Part shown: positions 10,532-20,027 of the stretch, in pieces
How the letters are laid out: each line of letters begins with the position of its first letter
How positions within the stretch are numbered: the stretch's first letter is position 1
Virus record (IMG/VR): IMGVR_UViG_3300035698_003146
Coordinates: 1 to 20,080 of that record
Length of the DNA: 20,080 nucleotides
Reading direction: 5' to 3' (one strand)
Origin: a virus
Position numbers and translations under genes: made by a program
The notes under the pieces: generated by a model
What the model was told of the DNA's origin: nothing
The model's input: the letters and a program-made list of their open reading frames with translations, nothing else
Database searches by the model: none

Positions 10532-11080
10532 ATGTTAAATGATAGAATAACAATGAGCGGGATTAATCAAGCAGCTATGACAATTGGGGCAGTTTATCAT
10601 GCTGTGACAGGAGTCAAAGATTTCTCATTTGTACCGGAAATAATTAATTCGCCTTTGACCGGCGATGGTGGAATCCATTACGGCCATATGGCAAAGCCAA
10701 GTGGTTTAACTAATTTTGATACAATAACTTCTTTAATTCCTTTAACAACTCTTGCTGCAATGTTGGGAATTACTGCTGTAGATTCAGGAGCAACACCAAA
10801 CCAAATAAGAAAATATACTTTGCTCGCTGGAAAGTGTTTAGAAGAGTTTAAATTTGAATGTAAAGGTGATTGTATGGGTAATGTGTCTGGCATAGGAACT
10901 GGAACAGAGCCAGGAGATGTCCACATTGTTTTTCCTAGTTGTAAGGCAACAGGAATAACAATTGCAATACCTGAAAAAGATTATGCATTACTAACTTTTA
11001 ACATGGTTGGATATGCCGACATTACTACAAAAGCATTTATGGAAATTGTACTTAATGAAACAGAAACTGCGATTGTATAA
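10532..11080 (+). CDS. Major tail tube protein (putative)
   Basis: A 182-residue protein that by position (after the terminator, before tail chaperone and tape measure) should be the tail tube subunit. Composition fits: few charges at the ends, many strands, Gly/Thr-rich loops and a late hydrophobic strand segment (YALLTFNMVGYADI). It has one of the strongest ribosome sites in the window (AAGGAGG, 10519-10525), expected for an abundant subunit. Four cysteines at about 102-140 are notable. I see no diagnostic motif, so the call is mostly from gene order. Confidence 0.65.
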   Translation: MLNDRITMSGINQAAMTIGAVYHAVTGVKDFSFVPEIINSPLTGDGGIHYGHMAKPSGLTNFDTITSLIPLTTLAAMLGITAVDSGATPNQIRKYTLLAGKCLEEFKFECKGDCMGNVSGIGTGTEPGDVHIVFPSCKATGITIAIPEKDYALLTFNMVGYADITTKAFMEIVLNETETAIV

Positions 11081-11598
11081 TGCCTAGTAATATTGCTCGA
11101 TTTAAACAAAGTTCTTTGAAATATATTAGTTTCAAGTTTGTGAATGATGGAGCGGCTCTGGAGTTTAAAATTCCAGAGCCCTCTTATATCGACGTACAAA
11201 GAGTAATTGCTAAGCTTGAAAAAAGATACCATATATCATCCATGGCTCAAAAGGTTGCTAAAAAATTAAAGAATAAAGAAGATCCAACACAGACGGAAAA
11301 AGATTTAATGAAATCTTATGATATTGATATTATGGCAGAAGTAGTTGCATTATTTGAAGATGTATTTCCTGATGATTCAGGTGGCAAATTAACTTTAGAT
11401 GATTTAAGTAAAGATCAAGTATTGGAGGTATTCGCAGCTGCGAGATCCTTTTTTCTCCGGTTGTACAATACCGAAGAACCATATGAGAAAGCTCCAACAG
11501 ATAATTTTCAAGAGGTTCGGGACACCACCGATAAACAAGCCAATATCGGACCTAACCTGGAGCGAGTATCTTTACAACCAGAAAGTAATATTTTATGA
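11080..11598 (+). CDS. Tail assembly chaperone (G-type)
   Basis: A 172-residue protein likely to hold tail tube subunits and tape measure together during tail assembly, as lambda gpG does. It is acidic and helical (VQRVIAKLEKRYHISSMAQK; DIMAEVVALFEDVFPDDSG; DQVLEVFAAARSFFLRL). It lies between tail tube and tape measure. The start overlaps the tube gene stop (TAATG). The last 25 or so in-frame residues look less protein-like than the overlapping +1 frame, which continues as a credible protein to 11662; see the separate extension entry. An unusually GC-rich hairpin sits within codons 25-34. Confidence 0.75.
   Translation: MPSNIARFKQSSLKYISFKFVNDGAALEFKIPEPSYIDVQRVIAKLEKRYHISSMAQKVAKKLKNKEDPTQTEKDLMKSYDIDIMAEVVALFEDVFPDDSGGKLTLDDLSKDQVLEVFAAARSFFLRLYNTEEPYEKAPTDNFQEVRDTTDKQANIGPNLERVSLQPESNIL
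11154..11180 (+). promoter_or_regulatory. GC-rich intragenic hairpin in the chaperone gene
   Basis: GGCTCTGGA (11154-11162) and TCCAGAGCC (11172-11180) form a perfect nine-base inverted repeat. The intervening bases GTTTAAAAT allow two or three further pairs and leave a tiny loop. This is the strongest stem I found in an otherwise AT-rich window. It is followed by CTCTTAT rather than a clean run of T, so it is not a standard terminator. It might attenuate transcription or slow ribosomes early in the chaperone gene, or be coincidental coding sequence. Confidence 0.5.
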
Positions 11599-11662
11599 TG
11601 AAACTAAAGAATGGATAGCAGAAACAATAGCAGAAGATAGGAGACAAAAACTTGAGCACTAG
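11408..11662 (+). CDS. +1-frame extension of the tail assembly chaperone (GT-type fusion)
   Basis: The +1 frame relative to the chaperone is open from 11408 (after a TAA at 11405) to TAG at 11660-11662. Its later part, PISDLTWSEYLYNQKVIFYD then ETKEWIAETIAEDRR, is clearly protein-like and resembles the T domain of tail chaperones. In many phages this domain is made only by programmed frameshifting from the G frame. A +1 (or -2) shift would give a product of about 193-194 residues. Candidate slip sites are UUU-UUU-C at 11449-11455 and UUU-C at 11506-11509, where Phe tRNA could re-pair. The -1 frame is closed by stops. Alternative: separate initiation at ATG 11483, giving about 59 residues, but no good ribosome site is apparent there. 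The exact shift point is not determined. Confidence 0.65.
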   Translation, partial: VKIKYWRYSQLRDPFFSGCTIPKNHMRKLQQIIFKRFGTPPINKPISDLTWSEYLYNQKVIFYDETKEWIAETIAEDRRQKLEH

Positions 11663-14600
11663 AGGAACCGAGATAAGTAAATTACTTATCAAGATAACTG
11701 CTGATAATACAAAAGCTTTAGCAAAAATGACAGAAACAGAAAAGAAAGCTGTTAAAACTGCTAATGCAATAAAAATGATGCGAAATACTCTAGTTTATGG
11801 TAGTATTGCCATGATTACAGCTCTTACTTATGCAGCAAAAAAAGGCACTGAAGAATGGATGATCCAAGAAGATGCAATGAGACAAGTTTCAAATAGAATT
11901 GAAATGACTGGAGGAGCTGCAGGAATAGCGGCCCAAGAAGTTTTTGATTTAGCAGATTCAATGGAAAGAGTTACAACTTATGGAGCTGATGTAGTTTTAC
12001 AAGGACAAGCAATGCTCTTAACCTTCACAAATATTGGTGAAGATGTATTTCCTAGAGCTACAGAAACTATGTTAGATATGGCAACAGTTTTTAAGGTTGA
12101 TGCAAAAAATTCAGCAATACAATTAGGAAAAGCTTTGAATGATCCAATTCTAGGAATTACTGCATTAACAAGAGTTGGTGTAATGTTCACAGAAGAACAA
12201 AAAGCACAAATCAAAGCCATGATGGATGTAAATGATATTGCTGGAGCTCAAACAATTATATTAGATGAACTTGCAAAAGAAACTGGAGGAGCTGCTGCCG
12301 CCGCTGCAGATACACTTTCTGGTAAAATGAAACAATTGGGAAATCTTATGGGAGGGGCATTTGAAAGTTATGGGCGAGGAATGAAAGGTTCCTTGATGAA
12401 TGCCCTTGATTATTTAACAAATGTATTTGTGCCAGTGTTTGAAGATATGATGGAAAGCACTGGATATACTATGGGAACTATGGTTGATGATGTTGTTAAC
12501 GGTATGAGAGGCCTGACTTCTGAAACTGACAAAGAACTTACTGAACAAGAAAAATTACATTATGGTTTTGGTTATGCATTATATGTAGTTTGGAATGGTT
12601 TGGTTAATGTAGTAACTATAGTAGGAAATACTATTCTCGGAGCGGTAACCTTAATAGTTGGTGGAGTAATGGCTATTACTGAAGGCGCAGTTAATGCAGT
12701 TAAATGGGTAATGAATATGATTACTCCTGTATTAGCATTTTTAAATTTACCAATGGAAGATCATTTAAGGGCAGTTGTAAAAATAAGTGAAACTTCTAGA
12801 AATTTAAGAAACACATTAGATAATACTAATATTATAATGCCTTGGGATAACCTTAAACCAATAGTTAGTTATGGTGAATATGTTGCAGATGTTACTACGG
12901 GATTAGATATATTTGATGACACTGTAGCCAAAACTAGGCCAGAGTTAAAGGGATTAGGGGAAGGACTTGGAGAAGCTGGAAAAGCCGCAGAAGCTGCCAA
13001 AAAACAATTTGAAGATAATATTGGAGTATTAGAAGAACTTGGAAGAGCAATAAGAGAATCTCTTATAAATAATATTGAAGATGCTTATGAAGCAAGGGAA
13101 TCTTTAATGGAGAATTATTCTCGTACATTAGAACAATCTAAAAACCAACAAATAAATGATGAAACTTTTATTCACAATGTTAAAAAAATGAATGCAGAAG
13201 ATGAATATGAAACAAAACAATTATCTTTAGAAAATCAACAAACTGCATTAGAACATTCTAAAAATGTAGCACTAGAAGCAATAGATGAAGAACAGAATGC
13301 TTTTAATGATTATATTGATACACAATTAATAAGAATAGCAGAGCTTGAAACTAATAGAATGAGTATGATCGATAATACTTTAAACGAAGAAACTTCAGCG
13401 TATAATACTCAAATTGATAGAATTGAAACTTTAATAGGTTTAGAAAATTCAAGATATAAAGATGAACAAAGAACAAAAAATTTAACTAACCTTCGAGATC
13501 AAATTAGTTTAGAAGATGATTTATATAGAAAACAAATTTTAATTAATCGTTATAACCAAACAGCTGAAAACTATAAAAGACAAGATAGAATTTCAACTTT
13601 AAATGAAGAAAAAGAAGGTTATAAAGAATTAATAAATACAGCGAAAGTAGCTGCAAATGATGAAAAAGATATTTGGTCTACAACTTTTGAAGAAATGAAA
13701 AAAGGCCAAACAGATCAAATTCCTGTTATGGATACCGGATTTGATAAACGAACAGAAGATATTTTAAAAAACTTTAATTATGATTCTAATGAATTAGGTA
13801 CAAAACAAAGTGATTTAGATAAAACTTTCCAAGACTCTTCGGAAGAACTTGAAAATACCTTTATAAATAGACTTGCAGTAATTGAAGGCGGGTATAAAAC
13901 CGCAATTGTATTACTAGAAGCAGAGCTTGAAACTTATAGAGTTAATAGAGATGAATTACTTAATGATACAAGCATAAATGAAATGGTTGTAAACTTATTT
14001 ACTTCTGGAGATGTTGTAAGATATATTAATGAAAATATTCCAGATATTTATAAAGCCGCCAAAGGGATAGGCGAAAAAGTTGTTCTTGGAGTTGGTGATG
14101 GTTTAGAGGGTAAAGCATTAGAAAAATCTATTAATGCATTTACTCAAAGTATTATAGACCAAACAGAAGAAGGATTAGATATTCATTCGCCTTCTGGTGA
14201 AGGAATAAGAATAGGTGGTTCTTATGGTGAAGGAGTTGTTATTGGAATGTATGATTCAATACCAGATATTCTTTCAGCAGGTTCTACAATGTCAGATGCA
14301 ATGTTAAATTCAATGGCTGGAGTTAAAGTTGGAGGAATGGCTAATGCAGCAAATGCAATGGGCAATGGTATAAATTTTGGTTCTGAACATGCAGGCCAAA
14401 CAATGTCAGGTGGTTTTATGTCAACTAGACCATCTTGGGATGTTTCAGCTGGTCTAACTTCTTCAGGTGAAGAATATACAATAACAGATATGATTTCAAT
14501 GGATCCAAATTTAAGAAATTCTGGAGCAAATGCAAGAACTACTGCAGCAATGTTACAAGGAGAAATTGCACCCAACCAAGCCGTAAGAGATTATCAAACC

Positions 14601-14738
14601 TCTCAAGAAAGTATTTATGGTCAACAAAGCGGCGCGCAAGTAACAAATAATATTTATACTCAAAATGTAGATCAACAAACAATGAATGATATTTCTAACG
14701 ATACACAAACACATATTGCAATGGATGCAGGTTTATAA
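11652..14738 (+). CDS. Tail tape measure protein
   Basis: Sets tail length and fills the tail tube before DNA release. The 1028-residue protein begins at TTG 11652, with AGGAG at 11639-11643 and an 11-base overlap with the chaperone extension. N-terminal tape-measure core at about 70-245: GAAGIAAQEVFDLADSMERV, ALNDPILGITALTRVGVMF, LDELAKETGGAAAAAADTL, GKMKQLGNLMGGAFESYG. A hydrophobic stretch at 307-365 may form membrane-crossing segments during DNA entry. Long charged coiled-coil regions cover about 440-770. A C-terminal HSPSGEGIRIGGSYGEGVVI (845-864) matches a common tape-measure ending. At about 0.15 nm per residue the tail would be roughly 150 nm. No lytic transglycosylase or peptidase motif is seen. 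Confidence 0.95.
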   Translation: MSTRGTEISKLLIKITADNTKALAKMTETEKKAVKTANAIKMMRNTLVYGSIAMITALTYAAKKGTEEWMIQEDAMRQVSNRIEMTGGAAGIAAQEVFDLADSMERVTTYGADVVLQGQAMLLTFTNIGEDVFPRATETMLDMATVFKVDAKNSAIQLGKALNDPILGITALTRVGVMFTEEQKAQIKAMMDVNDIAGAQTIILDELAKETGGAAAAAADTLSGKMKQLGNLMGGAFESYGRGMKGSLMNALDYLTNVFVPVFEDMMESTGYTMGTMVDDVVNGMRGLTSETDKELTEQEKLHYGFGYALYVVWNGLVNVVTIVGNTILGAVTLIVGGVMAITEGAVNAVKWVMNMITPVLAFLNLPMEDHLRAVVKISETSRNLRNTLDNTNIIMPWDNLKPIVSYGEYVADVTTGLDIFDDTVAKTRPELKGLGEGLGEAGKAAEAAKKQFEDNIGVLEELGRAIRESLINNIEDAYEARESLMENYSRTLEQSKNQQINDETFIHNVKKMNAEDEYETKQLSLENQQTALEHSKNVALEAIDEEQNAFNDYIDTQLIRIAELETNRMSMIDNTLNEETSAYNTQIDRIETLIGLENSRYKDEQRTKNLTNLRDQISLEDDLYRKQILINRYNQTAENYKRQDRISTLNEEKEGYKELINTAKVAANDEKDIWSTTFEEMKKGQTDQIPVMDTGFDKRTEDILKNFNYDSNELGTKQSDLDKTFQDSSEELENTFINRLAVIEGGYKTAIVLLEAELETYRVNRDELLNDTSINEMVVNLFTSGDVVRYINENIPDIYKAAKGIGEKVVLGVGDGLEGKALEKSINAFTQSIIDQTEEGLDIHSPSGEGIRIGGSYGEGVVIGMYDSIPDILSAGSTMSDAMLNSMAGVKVGGMANAANAMGNGINFGSEHAGQTMSGGFMSTRPSWDVSAGLTSSGEEYTITDMISMDPNLRNSGANARTTAAMLQGEIAPNQAVRDYQTSQESIYGQQSGAQVTNNIYTQNVDQQTMNDISNDTQTHIAMDAGL

Positions 14739-15598: not shown

Positions 15599-16644
15599 TC
15601 TTTTTATACGATAGCTCCCTAAACAGGATAAGAGGCTTGGATATTTACCAAAACTTAACTTGGGTTAGGAATTGGCAAAAAGAAGATACTTTTACACTTA
15701 CAATAAATAGACAATCTCCGCATGCTTTAGAGATAGATACTGGCATGTTTATATCTTATGGATCATATCTAGGCTATATAAGGACAATACAAGGATCAGA
15801 AACACTACCCGGAGCAGATAACCTAATTGTAAAAGGTGTGGAATACAACCTATTTAACGATAGATTGATTCAAGACGGCACAGATGCAGGTACTGGCTTT
15901 GATTCTCAAACGGGAAACGCAGAAAACGTAATTAAGCACTATTTAAACGCTAATTTAGTTGCTGGTAGGCAAATACCCAATTTAACAATAGAAACGGCTG
16001 ATTCGAGAGGTTCTGTTGTTACATATGACGGCAGGTTCCAATATTTATCAGATATGATTTATACAGTATGTCAAGCAGCTGATATTGGATGGAAAATTGC
16101 TTTTGATGGATCTTCTTCTACGTTCGTAATTATTGAAGGAGATGACAGAACTTCTTCTCAATCTTTGAATCCACCTTGTATCTTTTCAGTTGAAAACGGT
16201 ACTGCGACAAGAAGAAATTATGTAAAAAGCAATGTTAACTCCAAATCCACTGCATACGTTCTTGGTGCTGGAGCTGCAGCTGCAAGAGCTCAAACAATTG
16301 TAGGTGGGGGCAATACGGGTTTAGACAGAAGAGAAATTTATTCAAGCATGGAAAATACAACCGATGCAACAGAAACAGGGAATAATCTTTTGGCTCGATT
16401 GCCTTTGACGGATCAGAACACATTTGTAATTAGCGAGACTTCTTCGCTTGTTTACAATCGTGATTGGTTTCTTGGTGACAAATGCACAGCAATAGCAGAT
16501 GGAGAAACTTTTGATTTTAGAGTGAAAACTATTACCGAAATAATCACAGCAGCAAAAAAAGAAATAATGCTTTCTTTAGGTGCTACTGATGCGATAAATA
16601 TTACTAATATTACGAAAATACAGACCGCACAGGAGGTATTCTAA
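15595..16644 (+). CDS. Tail hub protein, ReqiPepy6 Gp37-like
   Basis: A 349-residue tail-tip hub of the Gp37-like group (PF14594), related in fold to phage T4 gp27-type hubs. Features: N-terminal LDIYQNLTWVRNWQKEDTFT, GVEYNLFNDRLIQDG (about 82-96), the helix GNAENVIKHYLNAN, RFQYLSDMIYTVCQAADIGW (143-162), and the C-terminal LVYNRDWFLGDKCTAI (284-299), where the family typically has a Y..D..LGD motif. No catalytic peptidase or lysozyme domain is visible, so it is structural. The start overlaps the Dit stop as ATGA. Confidence 0.85.
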   Translation: MIFLYDSSLNRIRGLDIYQNLTWVRNWQKEDTFTLTINRQSPHALEIDTGMFISYGSYLGYIRTIQGSETLPGADNLIVKGVEYNLFNDRLIQDGTDAGTGFDSQTGNAENVIKHYLNANLVAGRQIPNLTIETADSRGSVVTYDGRFQYLSDMIYTVCQAADIGWKIAFDGSSSTFVIIEGDDRTSSQSLNPPCIFSVENGTATRRNYVKSNVNSKSTAYVLGAGAAAARAQTIVGGGNTGLDRREIYSSMENTTDATETGNNLLARLPLTDQNTFVISETSSLVYNRDWFLGDKCTAIADGETFDFRVKTITEIITAAKKEIMLSLGATDAINITNITKIQTAQEVF

Positions 16645-18191
16645 TGGCTGAAAAGAGTATGTTTTGGGATGCCGTAGCAGGTGCACCGAGCTATGATGAT
16701 GCCAAATTATCAGAGTTTTTCCGGGATATTGTGAGAGATGGATATGTTTACAAAACTGGAGATGAATATGACGTTTCAGCAACAAGCCCTGTAACGATGA
16801 CAGTAGACGTGGCTCTTGGAACCGGTTTTGTGCAGGGTTATTGGCACTCGCTTTCAGTTGCTACAAATTTAGCAATTACTGCTGCAGATGGAGCAAATCC
16901 ACGAATTGACAGAGTAGTACTTGAGGCTGATATTGTGAGTGCAGAAGTAACTGTAAAAGTTATTGATGGAGTTGCAGCTGCAATTCCTTCTGCTCCAGCT
17001 CTTACTCAAACAGCTGCAAAATGGCAATTGTCTCTGGCTCAAATATTAGTTGATACAGCAGTTGTTTCAATTACAGATGCTGATATTACGGCTGAAAAAA
17101 ATGACGATGATTTATGTGGTTATTCGATTGCACCTTCCCAAGCAACTCCAAAAAGCGTATTTGACGACTATATTTACCATTTAAATGGTGCAGATGTAGG
17201 AACTACAATAAATCATGGTAGCTATGCCGGTTCGGTGTCAAGCCCAACAAAAATATATTTAATTGGTGGGGCAACAGATTTAGACCAAGTATCAATATTT
17301 ACACCTTCTGTTAGTGCAGCAAATGGAGCTTGGGCAAGTGGAACCAACATGACAACTCCAAGAAGTAGTGCCGCTGCTTGTTTTTATGACGACGGAACTC
17401 AAGAAAGAATTTTTGTGATTGGTGGTAATTCTGGTGGAGCATTAACAACTGTGGAAAGGTATAACATTACAGATGATAACTGGACAGCAAGAACGGCAAT
17501 GACAAACGCAAGGTATAATTTAGGAGCTGCAGAATTAGGTGGTTATATTTATTGTCCTGGTGGTTTAAACAGCAACAAAATGGAAGTTTACAACATATCC
17601 GGAAATAGTTGGGCAGTAAAAACAAATTTACCAACAACTCCTAACGCAAACCCAGCGTATAATACTGTTTGCGTTGGTGCAGGTGATTTAATGTACATTG
17701 CTTTTTATAACACCTTAGGGGCTTCAGTTTTTTACTCTTATAAGCTTTCCACAGATGCTTACACTGCATTAGCAGCTCCGGCTTTAAATGTAAATTCATT
17801 ATTTAATATTGATGGGTTTATTTATGGGCTTCAAGCGAATGTTATCTATAGGTACAATATAACAGAAGATGCTTGGGAAACAGTAACCGCGGCATCTGGG
17901 TTAGGAATAAGCAATATAATTCGAGCTTGTATCTACAAAAATACATTTTTTAAATCAGTGTCAACGACTGCAGCAACTGGTTGGTATACAGTTATTCGAG
18001 ACCTTTCAATCACAGCAAACAAAAGTGGTATTGCAGGATTTATTGATAGGAATGATATAAAATATAAAGTTTTTAATACTGTTTCTTTAGCTGGTGGTGA
18101 TTCCATAGCCGTTAAAGTGAGTCAAGGGTTGAAAATGTATGTAAATGATACCACCGCAACGGCAACGGCAGATATTGAGATTCTATTATGA
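16644..18191 (+). CDS. Tail tip / receptor-binding protein with kelch propeller
   Basis: A 515-residue protein, probably peripheral to the hub and engaged in host binding. Residues 1-160 form a baseplate-type attachment domain: FFRDIVRDGYVY, GTGFVQGYWHSL, ANPRIDRVVLEADI, VKVIDGVAAAIPSAPALT, ending in DDLCGYS. Residues about 200-420 contain kelch repeats, a beta-propeller fold: KIYLIGG (203-209), RIFVIGG (255-261), VERYNITDDNWTARTAM (270-286), YIYCPGG (301-307), MEVYNISGNSWAVKTNL (313-329), and more degenerate FIYG and YRYNITEDAWETV blades. About five blades are visible. The C-terminal 90 residues are beta-rich. The start overlaps the hub stop (TAATG), with CAGGAGG at 16630-16636. Receptor binding is inferred. 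Confidence 0.82.
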   Translation: MAEKSMFWDAVAGAPSYDDAKLSEFFRDIVRDGYVYKTGDEYDVSATSPVTMTVDVALGTGFVQGYWHSLSVATNLAITAADGANPRIDRVVLEADIVSAEVTVKVIDGVAAAIPSAPALTQTAAKWQLSLAQILVDTAVVSITDADITAEKNDDDLCGYSIAPSQATPKSVFDDYIYHLNGADVGTTINHGSYAGSVSSPTKIYLIGGATDLDQVSIFTPSVSAANGAWASGTNMTTPRSSAAACFYDDGTQERIFVIGGNSGGALTTVERYNITDDNWTARTAMTNARYNLGAAELGGYIYCPGGLNSNKMEVYNISGNSWAVKTNLPTTPNANPAYNTVCVGAGDLMYIAFYNTLGASVFYSYKLSTDAYTALAAPALNVNSLFNIDGFIYGLQANVIYRYNITEDAWETVTAASGLGISNIIRACIYKNTFFKSVSTTAATGWYTVIRDLSITANKSGIAGFIDRNDIKYKVFNTVSLAGGDSIAVKVSQGLKMYVNDTTATATADIEILL

Positions 18192-18557: not shown

Positions 18558-20027
18558 ATGGCTAATATTAAAAGAGTTCGTTACGTAAATCCAGAAACAG
18601 GTTTGTCTTGTTATTTTACTGGTGTATTTAGACCAGAAGATCCGAACAAAGATTTACAATATTTTGATGATACAGATGGAGCGTGGAGAAGTACTCCAGT
18701 TTCTCCATACCCAGACCTTACAGAAAGTACAATCGTAAAAGGTCTATATTATAAAAATGAAAGTCGAAAAAAATGGGCAAACGGCTTTTATGAATTTACA
18801 TTTTATTCAAAACTTGGAGCAGTGAAAGCTCCAACAACTGATGATATTATGTCAACTAACACCACAAGAATTAAAATCCAAAACGATACAATTTATGGAG
18901 TTGCCGCTACAGATGCCTCAAGGAAAATTATAAATGATGCCGCTAATTCAATTATAGCCGCCTTAGGTGTAACAATTGGAGCAGATTATGAAGGTGTTGC
19001 AACTAGTGGAAGTAATACAACAATTGTAGAAGCTCTTGCAATGTGGAATGTAAACATTTGGGCTTCTGTTGGAGATTTAGAAAATTTATGTGTGGTTGAA
19101 AGATTGGCTACTGGAAAAAGATATGGTTCAAAAATTGTTTCCAATACAAATACAACATTAACTGTAGATGCTTTAGCAAGTGGTTATTTAGTAGTTGCTG
19201 GAGATAAGTTCTACATAAAGAGAAATTCAAATGCCGTTGATATTAAGTCAGTTGGTGGAACAGTCCAGACTGGTGGAGATTGGACAGCATTACTAACTGG
19301 GATAGATGCCGATACGGGAAATATTGTGACAAACACAGGTATTATAGCAGGAGATACTACAAGCATTGATGGTAAACTAACTGATACAAATACCAAATTA
19401 GATACAGTTAACACCAATTTAGGTACAATTGAAACAGATATTGAAGCTATAAATACCGATACTAGTGCAATTTTATTAGACACTGCAAACATGGATACAA
19501 ATTTAAATACTATGACAGCAGACTTGGCAACAGTGAAAACAGATGTAGCCATAATAAAGGACAATACGGATGAGATTGAAACTAAACTAGACACAGTCAA
19601 CGTAAATCTTGGGACAATAGAAACAGACATAGAAGCAGTAAATTCAGACACAACCAGTATGGATGGTAAGCTCACAACAGTTAACGCAAATTTGGGGACA
19701 ATAGAAGATGATGTTGAATTGTTGGTAGGGGACACTGTAACAAACTATGCGGTTACTTTAACAGATTCAGACACTCAATATTCTCAAGTAATTCCAAACG
19801 GTGCGAAACACGTTTATGTAAATATTAGAGATGGAGTGTCAACAGATCATTTTAGGATTGCATGGGTAACAGGAAAAGTAGCCGCACCAACAGACCCATA
19901 CACAAAAGCTGACGGGAATGCTTATTATCAAACCCCGAATAATATAGTTTTGAACTTGCAATCAAAAACGCTTTACCTAGCTGGTTCTGCGGATGGAATG
20001 GTTGCACAAATCGAGGTGATAGGATGA
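18558..20027 (+). CDS. Tail fibre protein with long coiled coil
   Basis: A 489-residue protein, probably a trimeric fibre or tip appendage. Residues 1-90 are an N-terminal attachment-like domain (NPETGLSCYFTGVFRPEDPN). Residues about 95-245 are a mixed domain with a strand-rich segment (VERLATGKRYGSKIVSNTNT). Residues 268-392 form a heptad coiled coil with a/d positions as Leu, Val and Ile. It contains repeats of KLDTVNTNLGTIETDIEA at 279-303, 342-366 and, diverged, 370-393. The C-terminal 393-489 is beta-rich (VIPNGAKHVYVNIRDG), probably a knob that could bind the cell surface. AAGGAG at 18544-18549 precedes the start. The order after the kelch gene supports a tail appendage. Confidence 0.8.
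   Translation: MANIKRVRYVNPETGLSCYFTGVFRPEDPNKDLQYFDDTDGAWRSTPVSPYPDLTESTIVKGLYYKNESRKKWANGFYEFTFYSKLGAVKAPTTDDIMSTNTTRIKIQNDTIYGVAATDASRKIINDAANSIIAALGVTIGADYEGVATSGSNTTIVEALAMWNVNIWASVGDLENLCVVERLATGKRYGSKIVSNTNTTLTVDALASGYLVVAGDKFYIKRNSNAVDIKSVGGTVQTGGDWTALLTGIDADTGNIVTNTGIIAGDTTSIDGKLTDTNTKLDTVNTNLGTIETDIEAINTDTSAILLDTANMDTNLNTMTADLATVKTDVAIIKDNTDEIETKLDTVNVNLGTIETDIEAVNSDTTSMDGKLTTVNANLGTIEDDVELLVGDTVTNYAVTLTDSDTQYSQVIPNGAKHVYVNIRDGVSTDHFRIAWVTGKVAAPTDPYTKADGNAYYQTPNNIVLNLQSKTLYLAGSADGMVAQIEVIG
19392..19736 (+). repeat. Repeats encoding coiled-coil heptads in the fibre gene
   Basis: Three related units: 19392-19466, 19581-19655 and a diverged one at 19665-19736, encoding variants of KLDTVNxNLGTIETDIEAxN. 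Protein identity between the first two is very high while third-codon positions differ at many sites, so the repeat is old or kept by selection for the coiled coil rather than a recent DNA duplication. Confidence 0.75.

Follow-up and report, generated by a model that had tools for sequence, protein, structure and literature searches.

A lambda G/GT-like tail assembly chaperone locus with a probable +1 shift at a conserved UUU UUU C site

Low-level frameshifting between the G and GT products is widespread in long-tailed phages, and the shift can be -1, -2 or +1 depending on the phage (PMC5009743). In lambda, the gene lies between those of the major tail protein and the tape measure, a second frame without a start of its own overlaps it, a short product (gpG) and a longer fusion (gpGT) are made with a -1 shift, and the end of T abuts the tape measure gene. 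In phage Mu, T lies in a frame that either a +1 or a -2 shift would give; the literature assigns it to -2. Forward shifts have been reported or annotated in tail chaperone or related joined genes of HSTV-2 and of some actinophages in the PRFect set (PMC5009743; PMC10885494). The Listeria phages PSA, A118 and A500, together with SPP1, phages of Gram-positive bacteria, show +1 shifting in structural genes. Since +1 shifts at tail chaperone genes are less common and have no recognised general motif, they are easily missed in annotation. The PA-X protein of influenza A virus is made by +1 slippage on UUU_C while the A site holds a sense codon (UCC UUU CGU), as was shown by mass spectrometry, and the authors of that work predicted a wider class of UUU_C-type sites (PMC3498833). 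The phage locus described here is probably a known kind of system with the less usual +1 shift, at a UUU_C site like that of PA-X.

The window analysed is a whole IMG/VR virus record of 20,080 bases, and it carries a structural module of siphovirus type with genes for the terminase, portal, capsid, neck, major tail protein, tape measure and distal tail. The features of the locus are all on the + strand. The major tail protein gene (10532-11080; PHROG 4971, E 7.6e-5) lies directly 5' of the 172-residue ORF at 11080-11598, which sits in the chaperone position between the major tail protein and the tape measure. The tape measure gene itself (11652-14738; PHROG tape measure, E 5.9e-35) has a TTG start with a GGAG about 8 nt upstream. 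Relative to the chaperone, the +1 frame has an open stretch that begins at 11408 and runs to a TAG at 11660-11662, with a translation that reads ...TWSEYLYNQKVIFYDETKEWIAETIAEDRRQKLEH, and its end overlaps the tape measure start by 11 nt, a layout that suggests translational coupling. The preliminary description of this DNA had noted a protein-like +1-frame stretch at 11408-11662 without a convincing start, and its coordinates, peptides and two candidate slip sites are all present in the sequence. It had also noted that the -1 frame is closed so that +1 or -2 is needed; the -1 (+2) frame is indeed closed, and the T frame can be reached by either of those shifts.

The 0-frame protein matched no family in Pfam or PHROG, so it is named a chaperone for its place in the gene order and its architecture, and neither it nor the fusion had a significant match among 50,697 phage records. 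Its predicted structure was too poor for a judgement of the fold (mean pLDDT 53), and a PDB fold search gave no significant match. A search of about 1,200 genomes with an alignment of the major tail protein brought up one distant, high-GC match (G230), and the chaperone candidate downstream of it looks unrelated and of the -1 type. Streptomyces phage mu1/6 was likewise set aside; its major tail protein matches weakly, and its chaperone cannot be aligned and looks -1.

A scan of viral contigs with a tape measure alignment gave one close relative, IMGVR_UViG_3300042271_000091 (hereafter L008), with 66% identity over the tape measure segment; the contigs held no further chaperone relatives that the searches could find. 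The identity between the two is 57% in the major tail protein, 57% in the chaperone over 11080-11454 and 58% in the +1-frame segment, and tblastn with the +1 segment found L008 at 55% identity (E 3e-27), in the +1 frame of L008's own chaperone. The T segment of L008 is at 2182-2391, and the T segments of both viruses (11456-11659 in the window) weakly match phrog_10841, a family of unknown function, at non-significant E values of 0.05 and 0.2. The two-frame layout is the same in L008; the -1 frame is closed there too, and a GTG stands at the equivalent of the tape measure start. The 0 frame of L008 ends early, at the equivalent of 11536, and the 0-frame C-terminus is therefore not conserved. 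A chance open frame, or a sequencing or assembly indel in one gene, has nothing in its favour beyond the general frequency of indels, and, unless one and the same error is present in both contigs, is barely credible when an independent contig has the same layout at 55-58% protein identity and the codon-phase selection is opposite on the two sides of the site.

This opposite selection can be seen in the substitutions between the window and L008, a comparison of two sequences only, with the alignment taken as ungapped over 11323-11649. Up to 11454, 24 of 49 substitutions fall at third positions of the 0 frame (P 0.003), while over 11456-11596 third positions of the +1 frame take 31 of 55 (hypergeometric P 4e-6). 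The 0-frame periodicity is kept to 11454 and the +1-frame periodicity holds from about 11455. In the 0 frame pN/pS is 0.42 up to 11454 and 1.53 over 11455-11597, where the +1 frame gives 0.26. A likelihood scan with one switch of substitution phase gained 11.4 lnL over no switch, with none of 300 permutations doing as well, and switch points across 11440-11468 score within 2 lnL of the optimum. As judged from these substitutions, two overlapping frames are shown to be under purifying selection, each on its own side of the junction, with the switch at the T6C run; the conservation of the 0-frame protein ends there, at residue F125. The preliminary description had proposed to look for the place where conservation changes frame in related phages, and the alignment with L008 places it in this interval, from 0 to +1. 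Conservation of the 0-frame C-terminus to 11596 in place of the +1 frame, a pattern it had set against its own reading, is the opposite of what is found.

The same data bear on the idea that T is encoded by a small gene in its own right, overlapping the chaperone and with a start of its own such as the ATG at 11483, which is the single ATG in the +1 ORF of the window. This codon is CAA in L008, though, and the first ATG in the +1 frame of L008 (2251) is CCA in the window and lies well inside the conserved segment. No start codon in the +1 frame is common to the two viruses, the +1-coding signal begins 5' of both ATGs, with +1 periodicity already present from about 11455, and L008 has no T gene with its own start, the other finding that would have spoken against the preliminary description. 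A separate T gene is largely refuted, and we regard it as highly improbable.

Two sites in the overlap had been put forward as candidates for the shift, TTTTTTC at 11449-11455, which is read as TTT TTT C, and a likewise in-register TTT C at 11506-11509. The first lies inside the switch interval and is identical in L008 (2175-2181, in the same register), in the context AGA TCC TTT TTT CTC CGG in the window and CGA CAG TTT TTT CGC AGG in L008. A switch at about 11506-11509 is some 8 lnL worse, and the second site reads GTT C in L008. Between the two sites (11455-11508) pN/pS is 1.30 in the 0 frame versus 0.41 in the +1 frame, and over 11509-11597 it is 1.78 versus 0.18. The first candidate is therefore supported and the second rejected. 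It is worth pointing out that one copy of the heptamer on the coding strand is not unusual in itself, since codon shuffles give a mean of 1.7. A -1 site of the X_XXY_YYZ type does not fit, as the -1 frame is closed in both viruses and the T6C run is read as TTT TTT C, not T TTT TTC. At the switch point, UUU_C is in register for the P site, and the codon next to it, in the A site, is a sense codon.

We consider it likely that the locus encodes a tail assembly chaperone of the lambda G/GT type, in which a shift to +1 at UUU UUU C (11449-11455) gives both G and G-T. Most ribosomes would stay in the 0 frame and make the 172-residue G-like protein ending at 11598. A minority would shift and make a G-T fusion of 193 residues, with a T-like extension of 68 residues followed by the stop (11456-11662), ending just inside the tape measure start. 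In the shift, the P-site tRNA-Phe would slip from UUU (11452-11454) to the better-paired UUC (11453-11455), with TCC read next, while a slowly decoded A-site codon waits, CUC in the window and CGC in L008; a +1 shift at the first Phe codon (UUU_U) would yield an identical peptide. By analogy with lambda, G would bind the tape measure and T would recruit the major tail protein. The overall reading of the preliminary description, a T-like extension reached from the chaperone frame, has proved largely right, and is strengthened by its conservation in L008.

We infer that ribosomes perform the shift, and on pairing grounds its direction would be +1 rather than -2, with +1 well ahead. The same T frame would be reached, with one extra Phe at the junction, if the P-site Phe-tRNA slipped back by two along the U run (from 11452-54 to 11450-52). 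The re-pairing of UUU on UUU is perfect in both viruses, as the preliminary description had seen on the T run, and phage Mu GT offers a precedent (PMC5009743; PMC3498833). However, tandem re-pairing of two tRNAs mispairs in both viruses, where the upstream codon becomes CCT or AGT, so that only a slip of a single tRNA fits, and -2 is the rarer shift according to the literature. With the improved UUC pairing and the UUU_C precedent on the side of +1, we consider -2 unlikely. The T6 run is also conserved at the switch point, as would be expected if it caused slippage in transcription, where some of the mRNAs would lose one U (or gain two) and yield the fusion by ordinary translation. Productive transcriptional slippage in bacteria, however, usually requires runs longer than the six found here, which makes this explanation very unlikely.

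As for what might promote a +1 shift, the A-site codon may act as a stimulator. The 0-frame codons CTC and CGG that follow the P site (11455-11460) are both rare in the genome (2.1 and 0.2 per thousand codons of the window); the L008 counterpart is CGC AGG, with CGC, at 3.4 per thousand in L008, only moderately rare. No conserved downstream RNA structure was found in the two viruses (z -1.75 and -0.50). A Shine-Dalgarno-like GGAGGT at 11424-11429 is also present in L008; it was given no weight as a stimulator because some 23 nt separate it from the P-site codon and it codes for a conserved Glu-Val.

How does this locus compare with the systems described at the outset? With lambda it shares the position of the gene, a conserved, start-less overlap ending near the tape measure start, and a conserved slip site at the switch, the predicted products being a short protein and a longer fusion. 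It differs in the shift, which is -1 in lambda and would be +1 (or -2) here, at UUU UUU C. The locus would operate as a G/GT pair does, and its architecture assigns it to that type. Mu GT has its T in the same relative frame, but its shift is -2, whereas pairing favours +1 here. The HSTV-2 and PRFect actinophage cases are similar in kind of gene and in direction; the window chaperone, in contrast, is without a match in the phage records searched. In the Listeria phages the shifted genes encode the major tail protein (and the PSA capsid), the sites are CCC, and the products are C-terminal extensions of virion proteins, not chaperones. Influenza PA-X comes from an unrelated gene of a eukaryotic virus and resembles this locus in the site alone, a UUU_C in the P site, the A site being filled by a sense codon, CGN or CUC. 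In the literature searched, which gives a partial coverage, we found no report of a UUU_C site at a phage tail chaperone.

The same heptamer also occurs at other chaperone-tape measure overlaps, as T TTT TTC in the -1 register, in L018 (1964), L024 (1961), L062 (1047), L089 (2006) and L122 (1878). A mechanical survey of other tape-measure loci counted 116 overlaps in the -1 frame versus 22 in +1/-2, a crude count in which many of the 22 look like chance and L008 itself was mispaired. These cases suggest that the direction of the shift may depend on the register of U6C. Tentatively, U6C may serve both directions, read as U_UUU_UUC for -1 in the chaperone-position genes of phages with a similar tape measure (L018, L024 and L089, for example) and as UUU_UUU_C for +1 here, in which case moving the register by one base could reverse the G-T shift. 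If this is true, UUU_C would represent a +1 site that occurs naturally in bacterial systems and acts on a sense codon. The locus offers a short, testable site (UUU UUU C followed by CUC or CGC) that is backed by comparison, and it opens, in a bacterial system, the questions of what drives the forward slip of a P-site Phe-tRNA and of how the shift direction evolves while the G:GT output stays.

Other features of the window lie toward its 3' end. The tail-end protein at 16644-18191, after a Gp37-like gene, contains repeats of the beta-propeller motif Kelch (Pfam Kelch_1, E 2e-15), which seem unusual in a phage tail fibre or receptor-binding candidate. The last gene (18558-20027) is made of coiled-coil units in repeats (LDTVNTNLGTIETDIEAINTDT...), and the long antisense ORF within it, at 19211-19735, probably reflects its repeat composition.
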